A stretch of DNA of 21,186 bases. It comes from a virus. Both the position numbers and the translations under genes were made by a program. Positions 1 through 21,186 of the stretch are shown in pieces; position 1 is the stretch's first letter; each line of letters opens with the position of its first letter. Under the pieces are notes generated by a model. It had not been told where the DNA came from, ran no database searches, and saw only the letters and a list, made by a program, of their open reading frames with translations. The stretch lies in IMG/VR virus record IMGVR_UViG_3300032291_000249, positions 1-21,186 of that record. The stretch is one strand, 5' to 3'.

Positions 1-839
1 CCAAAGTCGCCAGCTTGCATCTTACGCAATCCCTCTACAGGAGTCTTAGCAAACTCTGGGCTGGCTGTGTAATCAACAATCGCACCCATCAATGCGCGGT
101 CAAAGTCTGCGCGTTTCTCAGCAAAGAACTGTGGATCGTTTGTTTGAGCTGCAATATCAAATACGCGCTGGCGTTCAACTAAGATACGCTCTGCCAGTAA
201 AACTGGGTCTTTCTCTACCCGCATCAGATCAGCAATGATAGTAGGTGTCTGCGAGATTAGGTCATCTGCGTTAGCTTTGACGCCTTCGCCATAAATCTTA
301 TAGGCGCGGTCTGCTGCCTTAGCGTATACAGGAGCTCCAGCACTACCAGCGGATGCCCTAAAGCGCAGGCCTTCCTCGGGTGATATGCTAGAGATAGCTC
401 TGCCATATCCATCGGTAATCGCTTTAATCTGAGTCTGTACGTCTTTTAAGTTAAAAGAACCAGAGTCAACCATTCCGCTTAGGCGCGAGAACTCATTACG
501 CACCTTTACTTCTAATTCATTACGGAGTTGAGCGGCCTGTACTTTACGAGCTGCATTGCCAAAGGTAGTGCCAGGCTGTGCAAACAATTCCTGTGGGCTT
601 TTACCGCCTTCCATTGCAGCCATAACCTGCTCTGCGCTTGGCTGGTTCTCTGCGCCGTACTGCAAACCTTCACGCTCTGCCTGCTCGTTTGCTTTTTTAA
701 ATGCAAAGTCAGATACGCGATCTAACGCAGATGTAATCGTAGTTAGCTGTGCCTGCGATTCCTTTACGTCAGCGCGATCTAAACGCGGAATGTCAGCAGG
801 CAAAAGGCCTGTTGGCTGATAGAGTGGGAGAGTTGCCAT
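1..839 (-). CDS. Internal virion / ejection protein, N-terminal part (mirror copy, runs off the start)
   Basis: Identical to the partial product at 20348-21186. It breaks off in the same codon as the right copy, after residue 279. This exact match of two supposedly independent ends is strong evidence for a doubled sequence. Confidence 0.65.
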   Translation of the reverse strand, partial: MATLPLYQPTGLLPADIPRLDRADVKESQAQLTTITSALDRVSDFAFKKANEQAEREGLQYGAENQPSAEQVMAAMEGGKSPQELFAQPGTTFGNAARKVQAAQLRNELEVKVRNEFSRLSGMVDSGSFNLKDVQTQIKAITDGYGRAISSISPEEGLRFRASAGSAGAPVYAKAADRAYKIYGEGVKANADDLISQTPTIIADLMRVEKDPVLLAERILVERQRVFDIAAQTNDPQFFAEKRADFDRALMGAIVDYTASPEFAKTPVEGLRKMQAGDF

Positions 840-840
840 A

Positions 841-1320
841 TTAACCTCCACCTCCATATGCAGATCCACCGCCAGAAGGAGCGCCGCCCATAGATCCATA
901 GGACGCGGCGGCCTGACCTAATTTACCAGCAGCGTCAAAATAGCCTGTGCGCTCTGCTGTAGCTCCAGCATCCTCGTATAAACTAGCCTGTATCAATCCA
1001 TTGCGGCGCTGACCTTCTGCGCCCGATAAAGCAAACGCAAACTCTTTACCGCCGCGAGTGCTATTTACCGCTTGAATTAATCCAGCTGATCCATCAAAAG
1101 CATTTACACCACCAGCAAAGCCGCGAGCAATTACAGCCGCATTAGCTGAGTTGGTGCGTTGTAGTATTTGATTAGCCTGAAATTCGTATTGAATAGATTT
1201 ACGCTCAGTCTCAAGACGAGTCACAGCTGCTTGCTGGTCGTAGTATTTTTTCTTGTCTTGTCCGGCCTTAATAGAGCCGTAAGCTGATACTACAGCTAAC
1301 ACTATCGCAACTGCTGCCAT
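841..1320 (-). CDS. Internal virion protein, gp14-like (mirror copy)
   Basis: Identical to the 159-residue product at 19867-20346: hydrophobic N-terminal helix, Gln/Ala-rich middle, Gly/Ser tail. Confidence 0.75.
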   Translation of the reverse strand: MAAVAIVLAVVSAYGSIKAGQDKKKYYDQQAAVTRLETERKSIQYEFQANQILQRTNSANAAVIARGFAGGVNAFDGSAGLIQAVNSTRGGKEFAFALSGAEGQRRNGLIQASLYEDAGATAERTGYFDAAGKLGQAAASYGSMGGAPSGGGSAYGGGG

Positions 1321-1321
1321 G

Positions 1322-3319
1322 CTATGTCCCCTGGTGTGTGGCTACTTTGTACTCCATACCTAATAAAGTCATCTTTAAAGGTATGTCCTGAGATATCGTA
1401 ATCTTAGCCTCTTGCGAGTAACCTAAGATGCCATGCAATACTTTTGTGCCTGTAAACTCTGTGACTGGCTCATCCAAAATATCACCGAAAGCGCGGAATG
1501 GGATCTGAGTACCGTTAATCTTCATGTGTTGTGTATTTGCAACAAGTGCGTTTACCTCAACAATGCGCTTTTTAAATCCAATGCGTGTCCCTGTTTGCAG
1601 CTTTAAATCGACTGGCATTGTGCGAGCCTCGACCGCGATAGGCAAACCGATCTCGTAGGATGATGCTGTAGCTCTAGGCAGCGTTACGGTACCGCCAGCA
1701 GGCACAGCCTGGTTAGCCTGTACTGCGCCGTCCTCAAGAATATTAACGGTCTCCGTTACTAGGTGCGACATCGTTACTGTGCTTACTACGCCTGTGCCTG
1801 ATTTAGCAGAGTCTGTAAACAAGTCATTATCAAAGACCTCTACGTAGTATTGGTTTGTTCCATTTACATTGCGGCGCACAACGGTATATATCGTAGATAT
1901 ATCCACGCTGACATCGATGTATGCACCATCTACTGTAATGAACTCAGATGGGGCAATGACGTTCTGTGCGCGCAGCAGAGAAAATACAGCCATCGTGCCA
2001 TCATTAGAGTTGGTCATCAAGAGTAAGTCATTCTCATCTGTAGCAACAGATCTACGCAAAGCTAGGCGACTTGGACCCTTTAGCAGATGACCAGCAAGCA
2101 ATGAGATTTTCTGAGTAACGTAAGTAGCTTGAGTATCCGTATACGCAAACTCATTAAGCGATTTACCCTGGCGTTGAATAAACAGAGTGCCTGACTCTAG
2201 CTGCTGCACCCGTACGCCTTGCTGCGTGCCGTTACGGCTAGCAGTCTTAACAAAGAAGTTAGTAGGCGTAATTGGATCTAATCCATTTTGCGGGACGTAG
2301 AACTCACCGCCAGTAGTAAACACTTGCAAGTCGCGACCAGAGATAATATCGACAATCGCGTTAAATGTATTGGTGTCTAGTGTTGCCTCAACCGCATCAT
2401 CATCTAAACCTTCAGTAGCCTCAAAATCAAAGAAGAGGCCAACCTTAGAACCCCATACAGTACTAGGGCGAGACTTAGAGCCACCAAAGTACAAACGACC
2501 TTCGTGGAAAGTAACAGAGCGAGGCCAACCCTTTCCGCTAGACCATACAGCTTCGTACCCAGATTCATAGTCCCAGCTCCCGTTTGCAATAGCGGATGTA
2601 TTAAAAAACGGAAACTCTGTAATTGCGTCTACAGATGTAGTCGAGTTAAACCGCACAATTTTAGCTCTGCCTTGTGGCACAGCATTTATATATTGACCAA
2701 CAGCGCCGGAAGTAAATACACCAGATGACGCAGTCAAAGTAACCTTGCCTGATACAGCGGATGGTGTCAGAGTCCCAGCTGGGTTAGTTACCGATACCGT
2801 AAACGCGTATTTAGGAATAGAGTCAAACGTAATTGCGCTAGCAGTCCAAAGAGAATCACTAGCTCCGCGCACAATGCTAATAGGCGCAATATCAGGATGC
2901 ACCACAATCAGCGTATCTGCCGATTGAGTCCATACGATATTATTTAATGTAGCGCCAGTCAGGCCAACTCCAGACGTACTTAGGTATTGATTGCCTGAGC
3001 CGTTAATGTTAGTGATTAAAGTTCTATTCTTAAATATGTACATCCGATTATGCGTAAAGCACAGCATATAGCTGTCAGATGTAGAGAACTCAAATTCAAC
3101 TAAGCGCACGCCGTTAGCCGCAGACTCAGTACTAGAGTTAGGCAGCGATGTAATGTAACGCGAGCCAGGCCTACGGCGAATACCGCCTTGTGGCTGGCAG
3201 ACTACATTGGTAGCCTTCTCTAATGCGTTTGAGTATGCAGTTAAATCTACACGGGCGCGGAGCAATGGATCGAGCTCACCCGTAGAGAAGTTCGTTTGTA
3301 TGCTTACAAAGCGACTCAT
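1322..3319 (-). CDS. Tail tubular protein B, gp12-like (mirror copy)
   Basis: Identical to the 665-residue product at 17868-19865, including the FSTGELDPLL and CQPQGGIRRRPGSRY signatures. Confidence 0.93.
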   Translation of the reverse strand: MSRFVSIQTNFSTGELDPLLRARVDLTAYSNALEKATNVVCQPQGGIRRRPGSRYITSLPNSSTESAANGVRLVEFEFSTSDSYMLCFTHNRMYIFKNRTLITNINGSGNQYLSTSGVGLTGATLNNIVWTQSADTLIVVHPDIAPISIVRGASDSLWTASAITFDSIPKYAFTVSVTNPAGTLTPSAVSGKVTLTASSGVFTSGAVGQYINAVPQGRAKIVRFNSTTSVDAITEFPFFNTSAIANGSWDYESGYEAVWSSGKGWPRSVTFHEGRLYFGGSKSRPSTVWGSKVGLFFDFEATEGLDDDAVEATLDTNTFNAIVDIISGRDLQVFTTGGEFYVPQNGLDPITPTNFFVKTASRNGTQQGVRVQQLESGTLFIQRQGKSLNEFAYTDTQATYVTQKISLLAGHLLKGPSRLALRRSVATDENDLLLMTNSNDGTMAVFSLLRAQNVIAPSEFITVDGAYIDVSVDISTIYTVVRRNVNGTNQYYVEVFDNDLFTDSAKSGTGVVSTVTMSHLVTETVNILEDGAVQANQAVPAGGTVTLPRATASSYEIGLPIAVEARTMPVDLKLQTGTRIGFKKRIVEVNALVANTQHMKINGTQIPFRAFGDILDEPVTEFTGTKVLHGILGYSQEAKITISQDIPLKMTLLGMEYKVATHQGT

Positions 3320-3933
3320 TAATACCTCACGTTAATAAGTGAGAAGTCATTTATAGCGTTAGTAGGATTGCCAGCGCCATCAATATTCATGGCCTGACGC
3401 AAATAGCCACCGCGGCCATTCTCGCTTGGGCCACCTGTAGCTACAGATTGCCAGTACTGGCTTTTGTCTGTTTGGTCGGTAATAGGCAAAGCGAGGTGCC
3501 AAGTCATCATGTACTTGAGCAGCTGCACGAAATAGCTAGGCATATCGTACTCAGGCACCGAGTACTGATAGTCGATATAGACCTGCTCGTAATCAGTCAG
3601 CAGCTTGTCGCCAATGATGCGGTATTCTTTGCGCGGAGGGATGTTGGTAGCGTTGGTATCATAGATGGCTCTAGGACTCGTTAAACGATCTCCTGGGAGC
3701 TGATATTCATAACGGTACTCATTGATAGGCGTAGAGATTAAACGCGCTATAGACGTCTTTTTATAGCTAAAAGACCAGGGGTACATTAATAGCGCCTGAT
3801 CCTTGATATCTGGGTATAAACGGTTGGCAACAGACGCCTCGTCTGTGCCTTCGTCAAAAGACGAAATCGGCTTGGCGCCGAGCATCAACAAAGCATCAGA
3901 ACATATCGAGAGAGCGGTATCACCAGCTGCCAT
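3319..3933 (-). CDS. Tail tubular protein A, gp11-like (mirror copy)
   Basis: Identical to the 204-residue product at 17254-17868. The stop shares one base with the start of tail tubular protein B. Confidence 0.92.
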   Translation of the reverse strand: MAAGDTALSICSDALLMLGAKPISSFDEGTDEASVANRLYPDIKDQALLMYPWSFSYKKTSIARLISTPINEYRYEYQLPGDRLTSPRAIYDTNATNIPPRKEYRIIGDKLLTDYEQVYIDYQYSVPEYDMPSYFVQLLKYMMTWHLALPITDQTDKSQYWQSVATGGPSENGRGGYLRQAMNIDGAGNPTNAINDFSLINVRY

Positions 3934-3951
3934 TTACTTCTCCAATGTGAG

Positions 3952-3989
3952 AATGGGCCACCACCGAGAAACCTCAGTAATGGCCCATT
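3952..3989 (-). promoter_or_regulatory. 17-bp RNA hairpin (mirror copy)
   Basis: Mirror of 17198-17235; the stem forms properly, with its G-U pairs, only in the leftward transcript. Confidence 0.75.
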
Positions 3990-4005
3990 TTAATACTAAA
4001 AGCTA

Positions 4006-4284
4006 TTAATCGCCGTCAGTATTTGCCAATACTGTGCCATCGTTTACGTCAACAACACCAGAGGCGTTAGAAAGAACATAAACAAGGCTAGCTACTGCGG
4101 TAGTGCCAGTAGAAGTTACGCAATAAATCAGATCGCCAACGCTGAGGATGGACGACAATTCATTGAAATAACCAGCTGTATTGACATCAGCCAAGGCGTC
4201 AGTCGTTTTATAAGCATACATTGCTGGAGCATTACCAGCTTTGGATGCAGCGATGGTTGAAAAACCAGTTGAGCTATAAGCCAT
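4006..4284 (-). CDS. Small capsid-adjacent virion protein (mirror copy)
   Basis: Identical to the 92-residue product at 16903-17181, 13 bases after the capsid stop with its own AGGAG site. Confidence 0.6.
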   Translation of the reverse strand: MAYSSTGFSTIAASKAGNAPAMYAYKTTDALADVNTAGYFNELSSILSVGDLIYCVTSTGTTAVASLVYVLSNASGVVDVNDGTVLANTDGD

Positions 4285-4297
4285 TTTTCAGTCTCCT

Positions 4298-5143
4298 TTA
4301 TGCTGTTTCGCGAGCGGTAATCTTAACGATACCCTCAGCATCGATGGCTACTGCACCAGCAGAGAATACAGAGTTCACGAGGAACGATGTCTTTTCTGGG
4401 ATGTAGTTAACTTCGGTGCGTGGAGCGATACCTTCAGCATAGCCGATAGCGTCTTTGTGGAAAGCAAAGCAGATACGATCCAAGCTACCATCAATAATCA
4501 GGCCGCCTTCAGTACGGTCGCCTAATACATGGAAAGTAAAGCCTAAGAAAGTATTGATTTCGCCGCTTACCAAAGCCTTAACGGTATTGAAGTCAGAGCT
4601 GGTTACAGCTGTTTCAGACAACAACGATGCCAAGCCTGATGCGTGGAGAATAATGTTACGACCTTCTGGTGGTACGTTTTTAGCGTCCAAAAGGCGCTTT
4701 GCTTCGCGCAATTTAGCTACGTTAAGGTTAGTATCGCTACCACCGATATCGTTGCTAACTGTGCCTGTGCCGCTAGCAGCTGTCAATGCGTCCAGGATTA
4801 ACTGGTCTTGACGGCGGCCAATAGCATTGCCCAGTACTTGTACGAGCTCTTGACGCTCGTCAAAGTTTACTTTGGCTTGGCTGAAGATATCGCTATATTC
4901 AGCAGCGTTCCAATCTTGCAATGTGCAAGTTACATTGGAAAAGCCTACGTTTAATGGGGTTACATCGGTCTGGGTAATGCGTGGGGTTGCAACGCCACGA
5001 CCAACTTTAGGGAAACGGACGGTAGAGCCTTCTACTCCACGACGCTGACGAACAGCACCAACCAGCATAGCCTTGCCCTGGTAGGCCTGTTTTACCTCAG
5101 CATCAAATAGAGTTACAAAGGCGTTCGATAATTGAACTGACAT
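4298..5143 (-). CDS. Major capsid protein (mirror copy)
   Basis: Identical to the 281-residue capsid protein at 16044-16889, with the same AGGAG site eight bases before the start. No differing codon is present between the copies, so they cannot be two capsid isoforms. Confidence 0.93.
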   Translation of the reverse strand: MSVQLSNAFVTLFDAEVKQAYQGKAMLVGAVRQRRGVEGSTVRFPKVGRGVATPRITQTDVTPLNVGFSNVTCTLQDWNAAEYSDIFSQAKVNFDERQELVQVLGNAIGRRQDQLILDALTAASGTGTVSNDIGGSDTNLNVAKLREAKRLLDAKNVPPEGRNIILHASGLASLLSETAVTSSDFNTVKALVSGEINTFLGFTFHVLGDRTEGGLIIDGSLDRICFAFHKDAIGYAEGIAPRTEVNYIPEKTSFLVNSVFSAGAVAIDAEGIVKITARETA

Positions 5144-5346
5144 TTGAAATTCTCCTGATAGGTAAACAAAAAATTAAGGTTTATTGCTTCGGTTAGCCTG
5201 TTTCGCAGGGCCGTATGCTTGCTAGTTACGCTAGCCAATCGACAGAAATATCTGTATTAAGGGCCAATTAAATGGTATGCCTTATGGAGTTTCTAGCAGA
5301 AGTGTTACAAAAACGCAACATCTTATGCAAATATTTTTATAGGCGT
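5144..5346 (-). promoter_or_regulatory. Capsid gene leader with three small stem-loops (mirror copy)
   Basis: Mirror of 15841-16043. The weak host-type promoter candidate falls at 5290-5318 and the three dyads at 5242-5255, 5221-5235 and 5197-5209. Confidence 0.35.
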
Positions 5347-5375
5347 AAAAAAACCCCGGCCGTACTGCGCCGGGG
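5347..5375 (-). terminator. Rho-independent terminator (mirror copy)
   Basis: Mirror of 15812-15840. On the + strand it appears as seven A residues (5347-5353) followed by the CCCCGGC / GCCGGGG dyad; it acts leftwards. Confidence 0.9.
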
Positions 5376-5396
5376 CAAGCCACTCCCGTGAAGGAT

Positions 5397-6173
5397 CTAT
5401 TGACCGAAAGTCGAGTTAAACATCTTCTCTACCTTGGCTCGGTATGCTGGGTCTGACTTGTACTTAGGATCCGCTACCATCTGATAGAGCTCATCCTTAG
5501 ATGGCGCTCCCTCAACTGGCATGGATTGGGTAGGAATACGAGTACCCTCGTAAGCCTCCCGTACTTTAGCTAAAGCCTTTAGGCCCTTAGCTGTGCCGCC
5601 CATATACTTAAATTCCTCAAAGTCATCTTTACCCCAGATGCCTTTGTTTACTAGCCCACGCGCCCAGTCTGTCATGCCTTTAATTACGACATCGGCATTG
5701 GGGCCTAGAGCTGCGCGCTCTTGCTCGATGGTACGCTGGCCGACTTCAGCCTGCTCACCACCCATTTTAACGACTTCACCGACTAGGGTATCTAGTGCGG
5801 CCTGCGATACGCCATACTCTTTAGCCCAGTTTAATACATGACTTTTTACTGGGTCATTGTCTGGTACTTCACCAAAGGCTGCGGTATCGTACTTCCCGTC
5901 TGCCGGGGCTTTGTGCTTGCCCTGGCTAATCTGCTTACGCAGGTCAGACCATGACTTTGCAATGCCCTCTAAGTCAGGCTCAGTAGTGTCTTTTTTCCAA
6001 AAGTTCTCTGGCCACCAATCGGGTCTTTCTAGGGGTGAATCATCTTCTTGTGGCGCCAAATGGCTTATTGCTGTGCTATTTGGGTCTTGTTGCTCTGCGG
6101 CATTACTGTCATCAACTGTTGCTGAATCCAATAGGCCGCTATCTTCTGCGGGTTGGTTCGCTTCGTCATTCAT
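5397..6173 (-). CDS. Head scaffolding protein (mirror copy)
   Basis: Identical to the 258-residue scaffold at 15014-15790, including the RPDWWPENFW block and the C-terminal tail. It ends 21 bases before the terminator stem. Confidence 0.9.
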   Translation of the reverse strand: MNDEANQPAEDSGLLDSATVDDSNAAEQQDPNSTAISHLAPQEDDSPLERPDWWPENFWKKDTTEPDLEGIAKSWSDLRKQISQGKHKAPADGKYDTAAFGEVPDNDPVKSHVLNWAKEYGVSQAALDTLVGEVVKMGGEQAEVGQRTIEQERAALGPNADVVIKGMTDWARGLVNKGIWGKDDFEEFKYMGGTAKGLKALAKVREAYEGTRIPTQSMPVEGAPSKDELYQMVADPKYKSDPAYRAKVEKMFNSTFGQ

Positions 6174-6175
6174 GG

Positions 6176-6460
6176 TTACATTTTCCTAGCTTTAATTAGC
6201 CGCGCTTCAAGGTCTCTAACGATGCTATTCTGCCCTTCTCGGTAGTAAGCAAAGCTAGAGTCGCTACCAGGCGTGGCGACTGGTTGCTCTAGTATGGATG
6301 AACGTAGCCATCCCATGAGCTTTTGGCCATCCTCAGTACCTAATACTCTGAGGCATAGCTTATTCAAATCCTCAACAGCCTGCTGAGAATCCCTAATATC
6401 TAGGGATATCTCATTGAGCCCTTCCCATCCATCTGTAAGCGCCTGCTCTAGCTTACTCAT
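6176..6460 (-). CDS. Bbp19-like small protein (mirror copy)
   Basis: Identical to the 94-residue product at 14727-15011. It overlaps the portal stop by four bases and ends two bases before the scaffold start. Confidence 0.65.
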   Translation of the reverse strand: MSKLEQALTDGWEGLNEISLDIRDSQQAVEDLNKLCLRVLGTEDGQKLMGWLRSSILEQPVATPGSDSSFAYYREGQNSIVRDLEARLIKARKM

Positions 6461-8025
6461 TGCATCTTACCTATTACTTCAGCCGCAACCTCTGGATTCT
6501 CTTGTGCGAGCTGCTGCGCTTGCTGCGCTGCTTGCTGCATATTAAATTGACGCTCCTCAGACGATGCGCGCAGTCTGCTTGGTACGCCGAGCTTGTCAGC
6601 GATAAAGTCAATAATCTCACCGTACTTCGGTGTGGCCTGACCCTCTGGACCCAACTGTGCAGCCATCTGTACAAACTGCATTGTGTTGGTTACATCTTCC
6701 ATATTCTGAGCCATAGCCAGCGGAGCGATTGGAGAAACACGCACCTCTAATCCGTTGACTCGCAATGGCAGATCGATCAGGCCGCGCTCATCCATTACCT
6801 GTAAAGTCTTGCTTACCAAAGGAATCATCGTCTCGTTAATTAAACGGCCAAACGCAGAGCCTAAGTTCTGGCTTAACTCCTTCATGCGCTCGACTACTTC
6901 AGTAGCAGAGCGAGCAGACATATTGTCAGGCGGCAATGACTCATCTAGCAAAATGCGCTTGATATTGGTTACGAGGTCATTAATAATAATCTGCGATACG
7001 TTGAAATCCCCAGCGCGAGGTAACGGTTTTAATGATTCGCCTTGTGGGCCACCATTACGCGCTACTGGGATAATTGCACCGGGGATAATCTTAACGGTAG
7101 CTGGATTTAAAACACCATCGTCTGCCGCTGTGTATACGCCTGAGATAGCCAAGCTAGCATTTTTAAGTACTAGCTCTTTTACCTTGTTTAATGTCTTAAT
7201 ATCTGGCAGAGCTGTAATCAATGGGCCGCGACCGTATATCTCGCCAGCGACTTTCATATAGCGACTGACAACCCAAGGGCTGTGCTTTAGTCTGCGGTAA
7301 ACAACCTCTACCTTAGACTCTTTGTGGATTACGTGATAGCAGTAGTCGCCACGCTTAGGATCAAATACGGTAGCCTCGATTAGCTCTACATCTTCTGTAG
7401 GCTTGTTATCAATCTTAGTTTGCAGATCGGCAGGAATAATCGCGTCTTTCCATTGCTGGATAATAGCCTCGCCCTTGATACGCATACGGCGGTATACGTT
7501 ATCTACTTGGCCGTTAGCGCCCTCTTCAAACGCAACCAAAAACTGTGGCACAGGAATGTAGTTGATTGGAGATATATCATCACCAGGCTGCACCATCATT
7601 ACTGCTGTGCCTACTGACAGATCAAGCAAAAACTCACCAACTGCAATATCAAAGTTAGATTGCTTAATGGTTGCAAACAGTTTCTCAGTATAGATATCAA
7701 GAGCTGCGTTAGCCTCTGCTTTGCGGTCATCTGGAATATCAGGGCCAGACTCTAAGCGGCACCATCTGCGCTGTGGCGGGAATATGCCTGACTGGATACG
7801 GTTAGCAAAACGCTGCGTGGAGTTGATAGCCGTAGCATCAAATACGCGATTCATCTTCTTAGCCCCGCCTACCTTGCCATCGTAATATCCATCGTACAGA
7901 TTACGCTGCGGCAAAGCGAACTCGTATGCCTCATCGTATAGATCACGGAAGTCCTCTTTCTTACGCAGCGCAATGTCGTGCCGCTTGAGGATGTCCTCTG
8001 GTTTTAAACGCATCATCTCAGCCAT
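6457..8025 (-). CDS. Portal protein, T7-type connector (mirror copy)
   Basis: Identical to the 522-residue portal at 13162-14730. The start codon complement is at 8023-8025 with an AGGA ribosome site. Since a capsid needs one portal gene, a second identical one on the opposite strand is further reason to read the window as a doubled fragment. Confidence 0.95.
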   Translation of the reverse strand: MAEMMRLKPEDILKRHDIALRKKEDFRDLYDEAYEFALPQRNLYDGYYDGKVGGAKKMNRVFDATAINSTQRFANRIQSGIFPPQRRWCRLESGPDIPDDRKAEANAALDIYTEKLFATIKQSNFDIAVGEFLLDLSVGTAVMMVQPGDDISPINYIPVPQFLVAFEEGANGQVDNVYRRMRIKGEAIIQQWKDAIIPADLQTKIDNKPTEDVELIEATVFDPKRGDYCYHVIHKESKVEVVYRRLKHSPWVVSRYMKVAGEIYGRGPLITALPDIKTLNKVKELVLKNASLAISGVYTAADDGVLNPATVKIIPGAIIPVARNGGPQGESLKPLPRAGDFNVSQIIINDLVTNIKRILLDESLPPDNMSARSATEVVERMKELSQNLGSAFGRLINETMIPLVSKTLQVMDERGLIDLPLRVNGLEVRVSPIAPLAMAQNMEDVTNTMQFVQMAAQLGPEGQATPKYGEIIDFIADKLGVPSRLRASSEERQFNMQQAAQQAQQLAQENPEVAAEVIGKMQ

Positions 8026-8026
8026 A

Positions 8027-8296
8027 TCAATCCTTTTTGTGCTTATTTGCAAAGTTGCGAGCTGCCTCTTTGCTACCAAATCCCCATGCCCTCAGCGCTA
8101 ACTTCAGACGCGTAGGCTTTCCATTCTCATCTGTCAACGGCCCAGCCATACCACCAAATCGAGCAGCAAAAGATACGCGCCGTGGGTTTGTACCTTCTTT
8201 GACAGGAGCTTTTAGATTCGCGCCCTCTGTCCGCTTAAAGTATTTACGGCCAGCCTCAGTAAGACCACCGCTTGGACTCTTATGCTCTTTCTTCAT
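8027..8296 (-). CDS. 89-residue DUF6321-like protein (mirror copy)
   Basis: Identical to the product at 12891-13160 (GGLTEAGRKYF near the N-terminus, GKPTRLKLALRAWGF near the C-terminus). One base separates its stop from the portal start. Confidence 0.7.
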   Translation of the reverse strand: MKKEHKSPSGGLTEAGRKYFKRTEGANLKAPVKEGTNPRRVSFAARFGGMAGPLTDENGKPTRLKLALRAWGFGSKEAARNFANKHKKD

Positions 8297-8871
8297 TCGT
8301 ACCAATCTGCTAATAAATTAGCCGCGTGAGGTTGAGCATTAACATTAGTAAGCCTAAACAAATAAGTTGTTAATGGCTTTAAAACAAATTCAAAAGAACT
8401 TAATTGACCGCCACCACCTTGCTTGTTAGACGGTACAAATTCACCAAATATTTCAGTACCAACTGATGTTACTGTAGGCGCAATAACGGCAGCCGCAGAG
8501 CTTGTAGTAATTAAGCTACGGTTACGCCTGTTAATCGTTAGTGCTGTTCCGCCGCTAGTAGTGGGAGCCTCATAAACATAAAACTCAGTTTCTCCAGAAG
8601 AGCCGTAGCTAAACATAATATGCGGAGTAACGCCAGCAGGGAAAGCCAATGCAATATCAATGCTAGCTCCAGCTGCCAATCCAGCTGCATATGGGTATTG
8701 CTTGTATACGTAATATCCTCTGCCTTCATGCAAACGTAAATGATTTACGTCCAATACAGGAAATGGTTTATCAGAGCTAGTTAAATATTGAACGCCATCC
8801 TTATCCACATAAGATGGGGATACGTGCCTTGACTTAGTATCTAGCGACTCGCGTTTGACTTCGATGGCCAT
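8293..8871 (-). CDS. Probable beta-rich virion protein (mirror copy)
   Basis: Identical to the 192-residue product at 12316-12894, with the NHLRLHEGR and YVYEAPTTSG segments. It shares one base with the gene before it and four with the gene after it. Confidence 0.6.
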   Translation of the reverse strand: MAIEVKRESLDTKSRHVSPSYVDKDGVQYLTSSDKPFPVLDVNHLRLHEGRGYYVYKQYPYAAGLAAGASIDIALAFPAGVTPHIMFSYGSSGETEFYVYEAPTTSGGTALTINRRNRSLITTSSAAAVIAPTVTSVGTEIFGEFVPSNKQGGGGQLSSFEFVLKPLTTYLFRLTNVNAQPHAANLLADWYE

Positions 8872-9342: not shown

Positions 9343-9343
9343 C

Positions 9344-11843: not shown

Positions 11844-11844
11844 G

Positions 11845-12894: not shown

Positions 12895-13160
12895 AGAAAG
12901 AGCATAAGAGTCCAAGCGGTGGTCTTACTGAGGCTGGCCGTAAATACTTTAAGCGGACAGAGGGCGCGAATCTAAAAGCTCCTGTCAAAGAAGGTACAAA
13001 CCCACGGCGCGTATCTTTTGCTGCTCGATTTGGTGGTATGGCTGGGCCGTTGACAGATGAGAATGGAAAGCCTACGCGTCTGAAGTTAGCGCTGAGGGCA
13101 TGGGGATTTGGTAGCAAAGAGGCAGCTCGCAACTTTGCAAATAAGCACAAAAAGGATTGA
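12891..13160 (+). CDS. 89-residue basic phage protein (probably DUF6321-like)
   Basis: I start it at ATG 12891, in an ATGA overlap, instead of the TTG nine bases earlier. The protein reads PSGGLTEAGRKYFKRTEGANLKAP (7-30), then RRVSFAARFGGMAGPL, then NGKPTRLKLALRAWGF. This ordered set (GGLT-x-x-GRKYF, ANLK-x-PV, RR-x-SF-x-AR, GKPTR-x-x-LALR-x-W) fits the small basic phage proteins that I recall as DUF6321. No function is established for the family. It lies one base before the portal gene, whose ribosome site AAAGGA falls inside its last codons, so it is probably translated just ahead of the portal. Confidence 0.7.
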   Translation: MKKEHKSPSGGLTEAGRKYFKRTEGANLKAPVKEGTNPRRVSFAARFGGMAGPLTDENGKPTRLKLALRAWGFGSKEAARNFANKHKKD

Positions 13161-13161
13161 T

Positions 13162-14730
13162 ATGGCTGAGATGATGCGTTTAAAACCAGAGGACATCCTC
13201 AAGCGGCACGACATTGCGCTGCGTAAGAAAGAGGACTTCCGTGATCTATACGATGAGGCATACGAGTTCGCTTTGCCGCAGCGTAATCTGTACGATGGAT
13301 ATTACGATGGCAAGGTAGGCGGGGCTAAGAAGATGAATCGCGTATTTGATGCTACGGCTATCAACTCCACGCAGCGTTTTGCTAACCGTATCCAGTCAGG
13401 CATATTCCCGCCACAGCGCAGATGGTGCCGCTTAGAGTCTGGCCCTGATATTCCAGATGACCGCAAAGCAGAGGCTAACGCAGCTCTTGATATCTATACT
13501 GAGAAACTGTTTGCAACCATTAAGCAATCTAACTTTGATATTGCAGTTGGTGAGTTTTTGCTTGATCTGTCAGTAGGCACAGCAGTAATGATGGTGCAGC
13601 CTGGTGATGATATATCTCCAATCAACTACATTCCTGTGCCACAGTTTTTGGTTGCGTTTGAAGAGGGCGCTAACGGCCAAGTAGATAACGTATACCGCCG
13701 TATGCGTATCAAGGGCGAGGCTATTATCCAGCAATGGAAAGACGCGATTATTCCTGCCGATCTGCAAACTAAGATTGATAACAAGCCTACAGAAGATGTA
13801 GAGCTAATCGAGGCTACCGTATTTGATCCTAAGCGTGGCGACTACTGCTATCACGTAATCCACAAAGAGTCTAAGGTAGAGGTTGTTTACCGCAGACTAA
13901 AGCACAGCCCTTGGGTTGTCAGTCGCTATATGAAAGTCGCTGGCGAGATATACGGTCGCGGCCCATTGATTACAGCTCTGCCAGATATTAAGACATTAAA
14001 CAAGGTAAAAGAGCTAGTACTTAAAAATGCTAGCTTGGCTATCTCAGGCGTATACACAGCGGCAGACGATGGTGTTTTAAATCCAGCTACCGTTAAGATT
14101 ATCCCCGGTGCAATTATCCCAGTAGCGCGTAATGGTGGCCCACAAGGCGAATCATTAAAACCGTTACCTCGCGCTGGGGATTTCAACGTATCGCAGATTA
14201 TTATTAATGACCTCGTAACCAATATCAAGCGCATTTTGCTAGATGAGTCATTGCCGCCTGACAATATGTCTGCTCGCTCTGCTACTGAAGTAGTCGAGCG
14301 CATGAAGGAGTTAAGCCAGAACTTAGGCTCTGCGTTTGGCCGTTTAATTAACGAGACGATGATTCCTTTGGTAAGCAAGACTTTACAGGTAATGGATGAG
14401 CGCGGCCTGATCGATCTGCCATTGCGAGTCAACGGATTAGAGGTGCGTGTTTCTCCAATCGCTCCGCTGGCTATGGCTCAGAATATGGAAGATGTAACCA
14501 ACACAATGCAGTTTGTACAGATGGCTGCACAGTTGGGTCCAGAGGGTCAGGCCACACCGAAGTACGGTGAGATTATTGACTTTATCGCTGACAAGCTCGG
14601 CGTACCAAGCAGACTGCGCGCATCGTCTGAGGAGCGTCAATTTAATATGCAGCAAGCAGCGCAGCAAGCGCAGCAGCTCGCACAAGAGAATCCAGAGGTT
14701 GCGGCTGAAGTAATAGGTAAGATGCAATGA
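13162..14730 (+). CDS. Portal protein (T7-type head-tail connector)
   Basis: The product has 522 residues, near T7 gp8 (about 536). It would form the dodecameric ring at the special capsid vertex through which terminase pumps DNA and to which the tail tube attaches. Recognisable connector signatures are ALPQRNLYDGYYDG (37-50) with VFDATAINSTQRFANRIQSG (61-80), the GRGPLITALPDIKTLN stretch (265-280), and SARSATEVVERMKELSQNLG (370-389), followed by a long helix and Gln-rich C-terminal helices (493-508). The ATG at 13162 has AGGA five bases upstream. A TTG reading from 13108 would run inside the preceding gene and lacks a ribosome site. The stop overlaps the next start by four bases. Confidence 0.95.
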   Translation: MAEMMRLKPEDILKRHDIALRKKEDFRDLYDEAYEFALPQRNLYDGYYDGKVGGAKKMNRVFDATAINSTQRFANRIQSGIFPPQRRWCRLESGPDIPDDRKAEANAALDIYTEKLFATIKQSNFDIAVGEFLLDLSVGTAVMMVQPGDDISPINYIPVPQFLVAFEEGANGQVDNVYRRMRIKGEAIIQQWKDAIIPADLQTKIDNKPTEDVELIEATVFDPKRGDYCYHVIHKESKVEVVYRRLKHSPWVVSRYMKVAGEIYGRGPLITALPDIKTLNKVKELVLKNASLAISGVYTAADDGVLNPATVKIIPGAIIPVARNGGPQGESLKPLPRAGDFNVSQIIINDLVTNIKRILLDESLPPDNMSARSATEVVERMKELSQNLGSAFGRLINETMIPLVSKTLQVMDERGLIDLPLRVNGLEVRVSPIAPLAMAQNMEDVTNTMQFVQMAAQLGPEGQATPKYGEIIDFIADKLGVPSRLRASSEERQFNMQQAAQQAQQLAQENPEVAAEVIGKMQ

Positions 14731-15011
14731 GTAAGCTAGAGCAGGCGCTTACAGATGGATGGGAAGGGCTCAATGAGATATCCCTAGATATTAGGGATTC
14801 TCAGCAGGCTGTTGAGGATTTGAATAAGCTATGCCTCAGAGTATTAGGTACTGAGGATGGCCAAAAGCTCATGGGATGGCTACGTTCATCCATACTAGAG
14901 CAACCAGTCGCCACGCCTGGTAGCGACTCTAGCTTTGCTTACTACCGAGAAGGGCAGAATAGCATCGTTAGAGACCTTGAAGCGCGGCTAATTAAAGCTA
15001 GGAAAATGTAA
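14727..15011 (+). CDS. Bbp19-like small phage protein
   Basis: The product has 94 residues and begins in an ATGA overlap with the portal stop. Residues 34-51 (KLCLRVLGTEDGQKLMGW) and 72-86 (YYREGQNSIVRDLEA) match the layout of the Bbp19 family of small podovirus proteins: helix, T-x-x-G-x-x-[LV]-x-x-x-L, a variable linker, then Y-x-EG-[QR]-x-x-[IV]. The name comes from Bordetella phage BPP-1. It sits between portal and scaffold as such genes usually do. A link to head assembly is inferred from position; no activity is known to me. The protein is predicted helical with no membrane segment. Confidence 0.65.
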   Translation: MSKLEQALTDGWEGLNEISLDIRDSQQAVEDLNKLCLRVLGTEDGQKLMGWLRSSILEQPVATPGSDSSFAYYREGQNSIVRDLEARLIKARKM

Positions 15012-15013
15012 CC

Positions 15014-15790
15014 ATGAATGACGAAGCGAACCAACCCGCAGAAGATAGCGGCCTATTGGATTCAGCAACAGTTGATGACAGTAATGCCGCAGAGCAACAA
15101 GACCCAAATAGCACAGCAATAAGCCATTTGGCGCCACAAGAAGATGATTCACCCCTAGAAAGACCCGATTGGTGGCCAGAGAACTTTTGGAAAAAAGACA
15201 CTACTGAGCCTGACTTAGAGGGCATTGCAAAGTCATGGTCTGACCTGCGTAAGCAGATTAGCCAGGGCAAGCACAAAGCCCCGGCAGACGGGAAGTACGA
15301 TACCGCAGCCTTTGGTGAAGTACCAGACAATGACCCAGTAAAAAGTCATGTATTAAACTGGGCTAAAGAGTATGGCGTATCGCAGGCCGCACTAGATACC
15401 CTAGTCGGTGAAGTCGTTAAAATGGGTGGTGAGCAGGCTGAAGTCGGCCAGCGTACCATCGAGCAAGAGCGCGCAGCTCTAGGCCCCAATGCCGATGTCG
15501 TAATTAAAGGCATGACAGACTGGGCGCGTGGGCTAGTAAACAAAGGCATCTGGGGTAAAGATGACTTTGAGGAATTTAAGTATATGGGCGGCACAGCTAA
15601 GGGCCTAAAGGCTTTAGCTAAAGTACGGGAGGCTTACGAGGGTACTCGTATTCCTACCCAATCCATGCCAGTTGAGGGAGCGCCATCTAAGGATGAGCTC
15701 TATCAGATGGTAGCGGATCCTAAGTACAAGTCAGACCCAGCATACCGAGCCAAGGTAGAGAAGATGTTTAACTCGACTTTCGGTCAATAG
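15014..15790 (+). CDS. Head scaffolding protein
   Basis: The product has 258 residues. The role is to line the inside of the growing procapsid, set its size and then leave. Supporting features are an acidic, disordered N-terminus (1-50); the RPDWWPENFWKK block (50-61), typical of scaffold proteins of T7-like podoviruses (RP-x-W-x-P-x-x-FW); PDLEGIAKSWSDLRKQI (66-82); a helical middle; and a C-terminal capsid-binding-type tail ELYQMVADPKYKSD to MFNSTFG (228-257). AGGA lies ten bases before the ATG. It is flanked by portal and capsid genes and followed at once by a terminator, so it closes the terminase-to-scaffold operon. Confidence 0.9.
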   Translation: MNDEANQPAEDSGLLDSATVDDSNAAEQQDPNSTAISHLAPQEDDSPLERPDWWPENFWKKDTTEPDLEGIAKSWSDLRKQISQGKHKAPADGKYDTAAFGEVPDNDPVKSHVLNWAKEYGVSQAALDTLVGEVVKMGGEQAEVGQRTIEQERAALGPNADVVIKGMTDWARGLVNKGIWGKDDFEEFKYMGGTAKGLKALAKVREAYEGTRIPTQSMPVEGAPSKDELYQMVADPKYKSDPAYRAKVEKMFNSTFGQ

Positions 15791-15811
15791 ATCCTTCACG
15801 GGAGTGGCTTG

Positions 15812-15840
15812 CCCCGGCGCAGTACGGCCGGGGTTTTTTT
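15812..15840 (+). terminator. Rho-independent terminator after the scaffold gene
   Basis: There is a seven-pair all-G/C stem, CCCCGGC (15812-15818) with GCCGGGG (15827-15833), an eight-base loop, and seven T residues immediately after (15834-15840). It starts 22 bases past the scaffold stop. On the opposite strand no T run follows, so it acts in the gene direction. It should cut or reduce read-through from the portal-scaffold operon into the capsid gene. Confidence 0.9.
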
Positions 15841-16043
15841 ACGCCTATAAAAATATTTGCATAAGATGTTGCGTTTTTGTAACACTTCTGCTAGAAACTC
15901 CATAAGGCATACCATTTAATTGGCCCTTAATACAGATATTTCTGTCGATTGGCTAGCGTAACTAGCAAGCATACGGCCCTGCGAAACAGGCTAACCGAAG
16001 CAATAAACCTTAATTTTTTGTTTACCTATCAGGAGAATTTCAA
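15841..16043 (+). promoter_or_regulatory. Capsid gene leader: candidate promoter and three small stem-loops
   Basis: This 203-base gap is bounded by the terminator and the capsid start, so a promoter is expected here unless the terminator leaks. The best host-type candidate is weak: TTGCGT (15869-15874), 17 bases, then TAGAAA (15892-15897) with an extended TGC ahead of it. A phage-polymerase promoter cannot be recognised without relatives. Downstream lie three short dyads: ACAGA-TATT-TCTGT (15932-15945), GCTAG-CGTAA-CTAGC (15952-15966) and CCTG-CGAAA-CAGG (15978-15990). The leader ends with AGGAG at 16031-16035, eight bases before the ATG. A structured, stabilising 5' leader for a highly expressed gene is plausible. 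Confidence 0.35.
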
Positions 16044-16889
16044 ATGTCAGTTCAATTATCGAACGCCTTTGTAACTCTATTTGATGCTGAGGTAAAACAG
16101 GCCTACCAGGGCAAGGCTATGCTGGTTGGTGCTGTTCGTCAGCGTCGTGGAGTAGAAGGCTCTACCGTCCGTTTCCCTAAAGTTGGTCGTGGCGTTGCAA
16201 CCCCACGCATTACCCAGACCGATGTAACCCCATTAAACGTAGGCTTTTCCAATGTAACTTGCACATTGCAAGATTGGAACGCTGCTGAATATAGCGATAT
16301 CTTCAGCCAAGCCAAAGTAAACTTTGACGAGCGTCAAGAGCTCGTACAAGTACTGGGCAATGCTATTGGCCGCCGTCAAGACCAGTTAATCCTGGACGCA
16401 TTGACAGCTGCTAGCGGCACAGGCACAGTTAGCAACGATATCGGTGGTAGCGATACTAACCTTAACGTAGCTAAATTGCGCGAAGCAAAGCGCCTTTTGG
16501 ACGCTAAAAACGTACCACCAGAAGGTCGTAACATTATTCTCCACGCATCAGGCTTGGCATCGTTGTTGTCTGAAACAGCTGTAACCAGCTCTGACTTCAA
16601 TACCGTTAAGGCTTTGGTAAGCGGCGAAATCAATACTTTCTTAGGCTTTACTTTCCATGTATTAGGCGACCGTACTGAAGGCGGCCTGATTATTGATGGT
16701 AGCTTGGATCGTATCTGCTTTGCTTTCCACAAAGACGCTATCGGCTATGCTGAAGGTATCGCTCCACGCACCGAAGTTAACTACATCCCAGAAAAGACAT
16801 CGTTCCTCGTGAACTCTGTATTCTCTGCTGGTGCAGTAGCCATCGATGCTGAGGGTATCGTTAAGATTACCGCTCGCGAAACAGCATAA
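16044..16889 (+). CDS. Major capsid protein (HK97 fold, podovirus type)
   Basis: The product has 281 residues, shorter than T7 gp10A (345). It is the shell subunit. Features are an N-arm FVTLFDAEVKQAYQGK (9-24); a probable E-loop region 30-70 with GSTVRFPKVGRG (39-50); a long spine-like helix with DERQELVQVLGNAIGRRQDQ (95-114); and the P-domain signature KLREAKRLLDAKNVPPEGRN (144-163) followed by a strand and LASLLS. The C-terminal third, with NYIPEKTSFLV (246-256), fits the A-domain and exit strand of this class. AGGAG eight bases before the ATG is among the best ribosome sites here. Position directly after scaffold supports the call. Confidence 0.93.
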   Translation: MSVQLSNAFVTLFDAEVKQAYQGKAMLVGAVRQRRGVEGSTVRFPKVGRGVATPRITQTDVTPLNVGFSNVTCTLQDWNAAEYSDIFSQAKVNFDERQELVQVLGNAIGRRQDQLILDALTAASGTGTVSNDIGGSDTNLNVAKLREAKRLLDAKNVPPEGRNIILHASGLASLLSETAVTSSDFNTVKALVSGEINTFLGFTFHVLGDRTEGGLIIDGSLDRICFAFHKDAIGYAEGIAPRTEVNYIPEKTSFLVNSVFSAGAVAIDAEGIVKITARETA

Positions 16890-16902
16890 AGGAGACTGAA
16901 AA

Positions 16903-17181
16903 ATGGCTTATAGCTCAACTGGTTTTTCAACCATCGCTGCATCCAAAGCTGGTAATGCTCCAGCAATGTATGCTTATAAAACGACTGACGCCTTGGCTGA
17001 TGTCAATACAGCTGGTTATTTCAATGAATTGTCGTCCATCCTCAGCGTTGGCGATCTGATTTATTGCGTAACTTCTACTGGCACTACCGCAGTAGCTAGC
17101 CTTGTTTATGTTCTTTCTAACGCCTCTGGTGTTGTTGACGTAAACGATGGCACAGTATTGGCAAATACTGACGGCGATTAA
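16903..17181 (+). CDS. Small virion protein next to the capsid gene, possible decoration protein
   Basis: The product has 92 residues, with a low-charge composition rich in Ala, Ser, Thr, Val and Gly. MYAYKTTDALADVNTAGYF (22-40) followed by LSVGDLIYCVT (47-57) matches a group of small phage proteins encoded just after capsid genes, with the pattern Y-x-[TS]-x-DA-x-ADV-x-x-AGYF and L-x-x-GD-x-[IV]. The ribosome site AGGAG with eight-base spacing is the same as for the capsid gene, and the gap between the genes is 13 bases, so the two are probably co-expressed at high level. That is my reason for suggesting a capsid decoration or stabilising role; the sequence alone does not prove it. Confidence 0.6.
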   Translation: MAYSSTGFSTIAASKAGNAPAMYAYKTTDALADVNTAGYFNELSSILSVGDLIYCVTSTGTTAVASLVYVLSNASGVVDVNDGTVLANTDGD

Positions 17182-17197
17182 TAGCTTTTAGTATTAA

Positions 17198-17235
17198 AAT
17201 GGGCCATTACTGAGGTTTCTCGGTGGTGGCCCATT
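17198..17235 (+). promoter_or_regulatory. 17-bp RNA hairpin between capsid and tail genes
   Basis: AATGGGCCA (17198-17206) pairs fully with TGGCCCATT (17227-17235). The inner arms TTACTGAG and CTCGGTGG pair in eight further positions, three of them G-U, around a GTTT loop (17215-17218). Because the G-U pairs would be A-C mismatches on the other strand, the structure makes sense only in the gene-direction transcript. No T run follows, so it is not a textbook terminator; an RNase processing site, a 3' stabiliser for capsid mRNA, or an attenuator are options. The tail gene's ribosome site begins nine bases after it. Confidence 0.75.
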
Positions 17236-17253
17236 CTCACATTGGAGAAGTAA

Positions 17254-17868
17254 ATGGCAGCTGGTGATACCGCTCTCTCGATATGTTCTGATGCTTTGTT
17301 GATGCTCGGCGCCAAGCCGATTTCGTCTTTTGACGAAGGCACAGACGAGGCGTCTGTTGCCAACCGTTTATACCCAGATATCAAGGATCAGGCGCTATTA
17401 ATGTACCCCTGGTCTTTTAGCTATAAAAAGACGTCTATAGCGCGTTTAATCTCTACGCCTATCAATGAGTACCGTTATGAATATCAGCTCCCAGGAGATC
17501 GTTTAACGAGTCCTAGAGCCATCTATGATACCAACGCTACCAACATCCCTCCGCGCAAAGAATACCGCATCATTGGCGACAAGCTGCTGACTGATTACGA
17601 GCAGGTCTATATCGACTATCAGTACTCGGTGCCTGAGTACGATATGCCTAGCTATTTCGTGCAGCTGCTCAAGTACATGATGACTTGGCACCTCGCTTTG
17701 CCTATTACCGACCAAACAGACAAAAGCCAGTACTGGCAATCTGTAGCTACAGGTGGCCCAAGCGAGAATGGCCGCGGTGGCTATTTGCGTCAGGCCATGA
17801 ATATTGATGGCGCTGGCAATCCTACTAACGCTATAAATGACTTCTCACTTATTAACGTGAGGTATTAA
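17254..17868 (+). CDS. Tail tubular protein A (T7 gp11-like)
   Basis: The product has 204 residues (T7 gp11 has 196). It forms the dodecameric ring joining portal to nozzle and carries the fibre attachment site in T7. Marks are SICSDALLMLGAKPISSFDE at the N-terminus (9-28), DQALLMYPWSFSYKKTSIARL (45-65) with the hallmark P-W-x-F/S segment, YQLPGDRL, YRIIGDKLLTD followed by a YIDYQYSVPE strand, and a helix LLKYMMTWHLALPITDQ. GGAG lies six bases before the ATG, and the stop overlaps the next start by one base (TAATG). It is first of the tail genes and sits directly after the hairpin. Confidence 0.92.
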   Translation: MAAGDTALSICSDALLMLGAKPISSFDEGTDEASVANRLYPDIKDQALLMYPWSFSYKKTSIARLISTPINEYRYEYQLPGDRLTSPRAIYDTNATNIPPRKEYRIIGDKLLTDYEQVYIDYQYSVPEYDMPSYFVQLLKYMMTWHLALPITDQTDKSQYWQSVATGGPSENGRGGYLRQAMNIDGAGNPTNAINDFSLINVRY

Positions 17869-19865
17869 TGAGTCGCTTTGTAAGCATACAAACGAACTTC
17901 TCTACGGGTGAGCTCGATCCATTGCTCCGCGCCCGTGTAGATTTAACTGCATACTCAAACGCATTAGAGAAGGCTACCAATGTAGTCTGCCAGCCACAAG
18001 GCGGTATTCGCCGTAGGCCTGGCTCGCGTTACATTACATCGCTGCCTAACTCTAGTACTGAGTCTGCGGCTAACGGCGTGCGCTTAGTTGAATTTGAGTT
18101 CTCTACATCTGACAGCTATATGCTGTGCTTTACGCATAATCGGATGTACATATTTAAGAATAGAACTTTAATCACTAACATTAACGGCTCAGGCAATCAA
18201 TACCTAAGTACGTCTGGAGTTGGCCTGACTGGCGCTACATTAAATAATATCGTATGGACTCAATCGGCAGATACGCTGATTGTGGTGCATCCTGATATTG
18301 CGCCTATTAGCATTGTGCGCGGAGCTAGTGATTCTCTTTGGACTGCTAGCGCAATTACGTTTGACTCTATTCCTAAATACGCGTTTACGGTATCGGTAAC
18401 TAACCCAGCTGGGACTCTGACACCATCCGCTGTATCAGGCAAGGTTACTTTGACTGCGTCATCTGGTGTATTTACTTCCGGCGCTGTTGGTCAATATATA
18501 AATGCTGTGCCACAAGGCAGAGCTAAAATTGTGCGGTTTAACTCGACTACATCTGTAGACGCAATTACAGAGTTTCCGTTTTTTAATACATCCGCTATTG
18601 CAAACGGGAGCTGGGACTATGAATCTGGGTACGAAGCTGTATGGTCTAGCGGAAAGGGTTGGCCTCGCTCTGTTACTTTCCACGAAGGTCGTTTGTACTT
18701 TGGTGGCTCTAAGTCTCGCCCTAGTACTGTATGGGGTTCTAAGGTTGGCCTCTTCTTTGATTTTGAGGCTACTGAAGGTTTAGATGATGATGCGGTTGAG
18801 GCAACACTAGACACCAATACATTTAACGCGATTGTCGATATTATCTCTGGTCGCGACTTGCAAGTGTTTACTACTGGCGGTGAGTTCTACGTCCCGCAAA
18901 ATGGATTAGATCCAATTACGCCTACTAACTTCTTTGTTAAGACTGCTAGCCGTAACGGCACGCAGCAAGGCGTACGGGTGCAGCAGCTAGAGTCAGGCAC
19001 TCTGTTTATTCAACGCCAGGGTAAATCGCTTAATGAGTTTGCGTATACGGATACTCAAGCTACTTACGTTACTCAGAAAATCTCATTGCTTGCTGGTCAT
19101 CTGCTAAAGGGTCCAAGTCGCCTAGCTTTGCGTAGATCTGTTGCTACAGATGAGAATGACTTACTCTTGATGACCAACTCTAATGATGGCACGATGGCTG
19201 TATTTTCTCTGCTGCGCGCACAGAACGTCATTGCCCCATCTGAGTTCATTACAGTAGATGGTGCATACATCGATGTCAGCGTGGATATATCTACGATATA
19301 TACCGTTGTGCGCCGCAATGTAAATGGAACAAACCAATACTACGTAGAGGTCTTTGATAATGACTTGTTTACAGACTCTGCTAAATCAGGCACAGGCGTA
19401 GTAAGCACAGTAACGATGTCGCACCTAGTAACGGAGACCGTTAATATTCTTGAGGACGGCGCAGTACAGGCTAACCAGGCTGTGCCTGCTGGCGGTACCG
19501 TAACGCTGCCTAGAGCTACAGCATCATCCTACGAGATCGGTTTGCCTATCGCGGTCGAGGCTCGCACAATGCCAGTCGATTTAAAGCTGCAAACAGGGAC
19601 ACGCATTGGATTTAAAAAGCGCATTGTTGAGGTAAACGCACTTGTTGCAAATACACAACACATGAAGATTAACGGTACTCAGATCCCATTCCGCGCTTTC
19701 GGTGATATTTTGGATGAGCCAGTCACAGAGTTTACAGGCACAAAAGTATTGCATGGCATCTTAGGTTACTCGCAAGAGGCTAAGATTACGATATCTCAGG
19801 ACATACCTTTAAAGATGACTTTATTAGGTATGGAGTACAAAGTAGCCACACACCAGGGGACATAG
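17868..19865 (+). CDS. Tail tubular protein B (T7 gp12-like nozzle protein)
   Basis: The product has 665 residues, shorter than T7 gp12 (794) but within the range of podovirus relatives. It forms the hexameric nozzle at the tip of the tail tube. The N-terminus is diagnostic: QTNFSTGELDPLLRARVDL (8-26) and NVVCQPQGGIRRRPGSRY (38-55). Later GWPRSVTFHEGRLYFGGSK (264-282) and the following VWGSKVGLFFDFE give the usual beta-propeller-like repeat. The rest is beta-rich with no membrane segment. GAGG lies five bases before the ATG, and the start overlaps the preceding stop as TAATG, so production with tail tubular protein A is likely coupled. Confidence 0.93.
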   Translation: MSRFVSIQTNFSTGELDPLLRARVDLTAYSNALEKATNVVCQPQGGIRRRPGSRYITSLPNSSTESAANGVRLVEFEFSTSDSYMLCFTHNRMYIFKNRTLITNINGSGNQYLSTSGVGLTGATLNNIVWTQSADTLIVVHPDIAPISIVRGASDSLWTASAITFDSIPKYAFTVSVTNPAGTLTPSAVSGKVTLTASSGVFTSGAVGQYINAVPQGRAKIVRFNSTTSVDAITEFPFFNTSAIANGSWDYESGYEAVWSSGKGWPRSVTFHEGRLYFGGSKSRPSTVWGSKVGLFFDFEATEGLDDDAVEATLDTNTFNAIVDIISGRDLQVFTTGGEFYVPQNGLDPITPTNFFVKTASRNGTQQGVRVQQLESGTLFIQRQGKSLNEFAYTDTQATYVTQKISLLAGHLLKGPSRLALRRSVATDENDLLLMTNSNDGTMAVFSLLRAQNVIAPSEFITVDGAYIDVSVDISTIYTVVRRNVNGTNQYYVEVFDNDLFTDSAKSGTGVVSTVTMSHLVTETVNILEDGAVQANQAVPAGGTVTLPRATASSYEIGLPIAVEARTMPVDLKLQTGTRIGFKKRIVEVNALVANTQHMKINGTQIPFRAFGDILDEPVTEFTGTKVLHGILGYSQEAKITISQDIPLKMTLLGMEYKVATHQGT

Positions 19866-19866
19866 C

Positions 19867-20346
19867 ATGGCAGCAGTTGCGATAGTGTTAGCTGTAGTAT
19901 CAGCTTACGGCTCTATTAAGGCCGGACAAGACAAGAAAAAATACTACGACCAGCAAGCAGCTGTGACTCGTCTTGAGACTGAGCGTAAATCTATTCAATA
20001 CGAATTTCAGGCTAATCAAATACTACAACGCACCAACTCAGCTAATGCGGCTGTAATTGCTCGCGGCTTTGCTGGTGGTGTAAATGCTTTTGATGGATCA
20101 GCTGGATTAATTCAAGCGGTAAATAGCACTCGCGGCGGTAAAGAGTTTGCGTTTGCTTTATCGGGCGCAGAAGGTCAGCGCCGCAATGGATTGATACAGG
20201 CTAGTTTATACGAGGATGCTGGAGCTACAGCAGAGCGCACAGGCTATTTTGACGCTGCTGGTAAATTAGGTCAGGCCGCCGCGTCCTATGGATCTATGGG
20301 CGGCGCTCCTTCTGGCGGTGGATCTGCATATGGAGGTGGAGGTTAA
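19867..20346 (+). CDS. Internal virion protein, T7 gp14-like
   Basis: The product has 159 residues (T7 gp14 has 196). It starts with a hydrophobic helix AAVAIVLAVVSAYGSI (2-17) and a basic KKK. A Gln/Ala-rich helix follows with YEFQANQILQRTNSANAAVIARG (45-67), then the GFAGGVNAFDGSAG segment (67-80) and a Gly/Ser-rich tail ending GGGSAYGGGG. T7 gp14 is packed inside the head and forms a pore in the host outer membrane during DNA ejection; the hydrophobic N-terminus and small-residue segments fit such a role. GGGGA is six bases before the ATG, and the TTPB stop is one base upstream. Confidence 0.75.
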   Translation: MAAVAIVLAVVSAYGSIKAGQDKKKYYDQQAAVTRLETERKSIQYEFQANQILQRTNSANAAVIARGFAGGVNAFDGSAGLIQAVNSTRGGKEFAFALSGAEGQRRNGLIQASLYEDAGATAERTGYFDAAGKLGQAAASYGSMGGAPSGGGSAYGGGG

Positions 20347-20347
20347 T

Positions 20348-21186
20348 ATGGCAACTCTCCCACTCTATCAGCCAACAGGCCTTTTGCCTGCTGACATTCC
20401 GCGTTTAGATCGCGCTGACGTAAAGGAATCGCAGGCACAGCTAACTACGATTACATCTGCGTTAGATCGCGTATCTGACTTTGCATTTAAAAAAGCAAAC
20501 GAGCAGGCAGAGCGTGAAGGTTTGCAGTACGGCGCAGAGAACCAGCCAAGCGCAGAGCAGGTTATGGCTGCAATGGAAGGCGGTAAAAGCCCACAGGAAT
20601 TGTTTGCACAGCCTGGCACTACCTTTGGCAATGCAGCTCGTAAAGTACAGGCCGCTCAACTCCGTAATGAATTAGAAGTAAAGGTGCGTAATGAGTTCTC
20701 GCGCCTAAGCGGAATGGTTGACTCTGGTTCTTTTAACTTAAAAGACGTACAGACTCAGATTAAAGCGATTACCGATGGATATGGCAGAGCTATCTCTAGC
20801 ATATCACCCGAGGAAGGCCTGCGCTTTAGGGCATCCGCTGGTAGTGCTGGAGCTCCTGTATACGCTAAGGCAGCAGACCGCGCCTATAAGATTTATGGCG
20901 AAGGCGTCAAAGCTAACGCAGATGACCTAATCTCGCAGACACCTACTATCATTGCTGATCTGATGCGGGTAGAGAAAGACCCAGTTTTACTGGCAGAGCG
21001 TATCTTAGTTGAACGCCAGCGCGTATTTGATATTGCAGCTCAAACAAACGATCCACAGTTCTTTGCTGAGAAACGCGCAGACTTTGACCGCGCATTGATG
21101 GGTGCGATTGTTGATTACACAGCCAGCCCAGAGTTTGCTAAGACTCCTGTAGAGGGATTGCGTAAGATGCAAGCTGGCGACTTTGG
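20348..21186 (+). CDS. Internal virion / ejection protein, N-terminal part (runs off the end)
   Basis: A frame from ATG 20348, with GGAGG five bases upstream, stays open to the last base, giving 279 complete codons and no stop. The product begins MATLPLYQPTGLLPADIPRL. It is mostly helical and rich in Ala, Glu, Gln and Arg (for example FAFKKANEQAEREGLQYG at 45-62), without membrane segments or Cys. Its position directly after the gp14-like gene and its composition fit a T7 gp15-like or similar internal core protein that is ejected with DNA. The specific family is inferred mainly from gene order. The missing 3' end would carry the rest of the ejection module. Confidence 0.65.
   Translation, partial: MATLPLYQPTGLLPADIPRLDRADVKESQAQLTTITSALDRVSDFAFKKANEQAEREGLQYGAENQPSAEQVMAAMEGGKSPQELFAQPGTTFGNAARKVQAAQLRNELEVKVRNEFSRLSGMVDSGSFNLKDVQTQIKAITDGYGRAISSISPEEGLRFRASAGSAGAPVYAKAADRAYKIYGEGVKANADDLISQTPTIIADLMRVEKDPVLLAERILVERQRVFDIAAQTNDPQFFAEKRADFDRALMGAIVDYTASPEFAKTPVEGLRKMQAGDF

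Follow-up and report, generated by a model that had tools for sequence, protein, structure and literature searches.

A 21,186-base viral record that is almost certainly an artefact: a MEP301-like phage fragment joined head to head with its own reverse complement

Replicons with hairpin telomeres, of which phage N15 is an example, form head-to-head inverted molecules, and their replication yields head-to-head palindromic junctions located at the telomere palindrome. Palindromes are also known as products of sequencing and assembly. In long-read metagenome contigs they arise from adapter-skipped reads and mark mis-assembly (BIGMAC, PMC5084376). Symmetric fold-back reads, some of them lacking any sequence between the halves, are an established artefact of nanopore libraries, with almost none in PacBio HiFi data from the same survey (Breakinator, PMC12870357), and palindromic reads also result from missed SMRTbell adaptors and from whole-genome amplification (Pacasus, PMC6218980). 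For IMG/VR itself, the CheckV authors regarded contigs with a repeated genome as probable assembly artefacts (PMC8116208).

The stretch analysed here (the window) is the entire IMG/VR record IMGVR_UViG_3300032291_000249 (G000:C1:1-21186), a viral sequence of 21,186 bases classed as linear, and thus there is no unique flank beyond either end. An earlier note had described the whole window as a spacerless perfect palindrome. Indeed, a position-by-position comparison of the window and its reverse complement gave 0 differences over 21,186 positions. The axis lies between positions 10593 and 10594, with GGCCTGATCCTAC to its left and GTAGGATCAGGCC to its right and no spacer. Chance is excluded as the origin of this palindrome, because 10,593 independent matches would be required. 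Searches of the window for tRNAs and for Rfam families returned no match. The features of the window, which apart from the left arm, the axis and one mirror copy are given for the right arm only, are as follows.

1-10593, minus strand: left arm, exact reverse complement of 10594-21186 with 0 mismatches
10594-21186, plus strand: right arm, one fragment (10,593 bases) from the genome of a MEP301-like phage
10578-10609, no strand: axis region, spacerless palindrome centred on 10593/10594
10594-10785, plus strand: C-terminal 63 codons and stop of the terminase large subunit gene (terL), cut at the axis (tblastn to MEP301 TerL residues 458-517, 70% identity, in both arms)
10402-10593, minus strand: mirror copy of the terL fragment, with the same tblastn match as in the right arm
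10782-11276, plus strand: acetyltransferase-like protein or internal virion protein homologue (PHROG 4177 and 308; position matches the putative acetyltransferase gp44 of MEP301)
13108-14730, plus strand: portal (head-tail connector; PHROG 332, E 1.4e-87; 78% identity to MEP301)
15014-15790, plus strand: capsid assembly (scaffold) protein (PHROG 1052; MEP301 gp32)
16044-16889, plus strand: major capsid protein (PHROG 3437, E 3.2e-54)
17254-17868, plus strand: tail tubular protein A (PHROG 394; MEP301 gp29)
17868-19865, plus strand: tail tubular protein B (PHROG 376, E 7.4e-128; MEP301 gp28)
19867-20346, plus strand: internal virion protein (PHROG 418)
20288-21184, plus strand: homologue of MEP301 gp26, cut by the outer end

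Several small proteins are also encoded between the acetyltransferase-like ORF and the portal region. The acetyltransferase-like ORF directly follows terL, and its relation to both PHROG 4177 and PHROG 308 (internal virion protein) is weak. The gene content of the arm is that of an unremarkable structural module, derived from a short-tailed phage (podovirus) related to Methylophilales phage MEP301 (MW452941), with portal, capsid and tail-tube homologues in MEP301-like order. MEP301 is the closest isolate that we found by protein search, whereas megablast of a phage collection gave no near match to the window. Uncultured relatives in IMG/VR are numerous; their portal proteins reach 99% identity, and in the nearest relatives aligned blocks of DNA are about 82-95% identical. 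These relatives and MEP301 share with the arm the order terL, acetyltransferase, portal, scaffold, capsid, tail tubes, internal proteins, but MEP301 has a single-copy genome of 34.8 kb in which terL is intact and the fold is absent. For the larger arm proteins, alignments with those of the relatives mostly cover the full length and are almost free of gaps, and therefore the consensus is accurate and does not represent a raw noisy read.

Both the axis and the outer end fall within genes. The reading frame cut by the outer end continues, in the same frame, in two relatives (L001 and L005). At the axis, the earlier note had placed the fold inside a terminase gene, and comparison with the relative L036 bears this out: the arm begins at codon 457 of the 517 in terL, a gene that is intact in the relatives (517 to 519 codons). 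As the earlier note had proposed, we also searched for related contigs that continue terL unfolded. Taking as read-through a terL alignment that spans at least 30 codons on each side of the point equivalent to the axis, 144 of the 146 related loci that matched terL continue straight across it. Just one alignment stops 15 codons or fewer from this point, that of L001, a contig that merely begins there. Rightward of the axis, L036 and the window are identical at 53 of 53 bases, while leftward of it similarity to the relatives ends immediately.

We considered whether the axis might coincide with a native palindrome or a snap-back hairpin and rejected this, since the relatives have neither. No inverted repeat of at least 6 bp closely spans the site in L002, L004, L005, L006 or L036, and the few 6-mers that straddle it in these five relatives lie 38 to 94 bases apart. 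A GATC pair in the native sequence of the relatives would leave a 7-base loop, and this loop is missing from the window. Moreover, the mirrored sequence to the left of the axis contains a stop when read in the terL frame (LA*SY), so that a native palindrome of at least 18 bp at this position would break terL. This argument against a natural fold takes the relatives as stand-ins for the sequence upstream of the axis in the window, and would hold to the extent that they represent it. The palindrome also does not recur: the 16-mer at its centre is absent from all related phage contigs in viral_contigs, where its sole occurrence is in one unrelated 428-kb contig, and no inverted repeat of at least 40 bp was found in 226 related loci (2.37 Mb in total).

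We conclude that the record is almost certainly a sequencing or assembly artefact, in which a 10,593-base MEP301-like fragment meets a reverse-complemented copy of itself head to head. The earlier note had reached the same reading, and it is supported by an axis and an outer end that both lie in mid-gene, by relatives that read through, by the lack of a native palindrome and by the lack of recurrence. These observations are stronger evidence than the identity of the arms. The earlier note had counted the identical arms and the outer ends at the same base as signs of an artefact. Both are observed, but an assembler that merges each k-mer with its reverse complement yields both by construction; they are thus not independent evidence, and would appear even with a real inverted molecule. 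As in fold-back artefacts, the two halves are mutually reverse-complementary and symmetric about the midpoint, and independent relatives lack the axis. The likeness to the fold-back and adapter-skipped reads described previously (PMC5084376, PMC12870357, PMC6218980) extends to the two strands following each other consecutively, to the missing spacer and to the arbitrary position of the axis; the difference is that here the shape is seen in a deposited contig rather than in a read.

As for how the join arose, the source would be one 10,593-base stretch of an ordinary podovirus genome of ~34 kb, and the join would have been placed where the sequenced fragment, or the covered path in the graph, came to an end. 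We infer that either a fold-back read carried both strands of one fragment in succession, for example as an adapter-skipped long read, or a few fold-back library molecules were present at the tip of a contig. An assembler would then continue past the join and retrace the same nodes in the opposite direction, giving identical arms and outer ends at the same base. We examined this in a toy de Bruijn graph assembly of error-free simulated reads from the arm, with or without fold-back reads at the axis. The arm reads alone gave a unitig of 10,593 bases. When three fold-back reads were added and upstream reads were absent, the result was a single unitig of 21,186 bases that was a perfect palindrome, whereas with reads continuing upstream of the axis the path branched and no palindrome formed. 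If a graph assembler was used, the exact arms and same-base ends therefore imply that the true upstream continuation was absent from the source data or had been pruned. An adapter-skipped long read would give the same shape, and we regard the long-read and graph origins as equally plausible.

Within the artefact reading, two other routes deserve consideration. In an MDA amplification chimera, a displaced 3' end would re-prime on the sister strand and be copied back. Inverted joins account for most MDA chimeras (85%; PMC1855051), and in one data set produced by whole-genome amplification 40-50% of the long reads were palindromic (PMC6218980). However, MDA inversions typically come with an intervening deletion and, at short range, with complementarity of a few bases, which is present in 93.5% of the cases under 10 kb (PMC1855051). 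The join in the window is spacerless and thus lacks such a deletion, and no microhomology is visible: with the relatives standing in for the native sequence, the base adjoining the axis is A or G, against C in the mirrored sequence. Because both a deletion and short complementarity are usual in such chimeras, we consider this route unlikely. The other route is purely computational, in that a short native palindrome at the axis would have made the assembler reverse with no fold-back molecule involved. With odd k, an assembly graph can contain an edge identical to its own reverse complement, and contigs of the relatives do break close to the axis. L094 and L001, two contigs of the same sample, share exactly 91 bases where L094 ends and L001 starts, in the conserved stretch encoding the TerL C-terminus, and L001 begins 33 bases inside the axis; this overlap is a typical graph break point, and relatives' contigs do end in that region of terL. 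A turn of this kind nevertheless needs a palindrome that the relatives do not have at the site and that, from 18 bp upwards, would put the in-frame stop into terL, making this route very improbable.

A natural origin would require that the record represents a real molecule folded inside terL, either a head-to-head intermediate of replication or a defective genome in inverted-dimer form, possibly derived from a closed hairpin end. The precedent of the N15-type replicons speaks for this reading, and a rare defective molecule would be compatible with the sequence alone. Unlike the junctions of those replicons, however, the axis lies inside a packaging gene, and neither a telomere site nor the corresponding enzyme was seen in the relatives examined: a telomere-like palindrome is absent from the five relatives named above, and no protelomerase was found among the main ORFs of the arm (about one third of the genome) or among the annotated genes of MEP301. 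The long relatives (34 to 36 kb) break at differing points relative to the arm, and in G006 the same stretch of the arm is found at both ends of the contig. The varied break points and the double-ended stretch fit circular or permuted maps rather than a fixed hairpin end in terL. As the axis does not recur among related loci either, we find a natural inverted molecule scarcely credible.

The consequence of the artefact reading is limited to data quality. The true content of the record is 10.6 kb, about 31% of a genome of ~34 kb; record length and gene counts are doubled, and estimates of completeness or gene copy number that use the record are inflated. A self-reverse-complement test would detect records of this kind.

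Lastly, the relatives differ among themselves around the portal gene. In three of them (L028:2330-4323, L029:2401-4397 and L030:173-2166) the start of the portal gene is duplicated: about 27 residues of the portal N-terminus lead into a separate ORF (in L028, 155 codons from one stop to the next), after which the portal resumes ~360 bases later from residue 19. Rfam gave no match in these three loci, hence no intron match at the duplicated start, and none in L008. After the portal region, L005 has an extra ORF of ~178 codons (L005:11840-12375) that is not in the window and by eye resembles an HNH homing endonuclease. A 3.4-kb insertion follows the portal in L008 (L008:3349-6785) and encodes a collagen-like protein with GXX repeats and a long repetitive protein (727 codons), which are possibly adhesins or fibre proteins.
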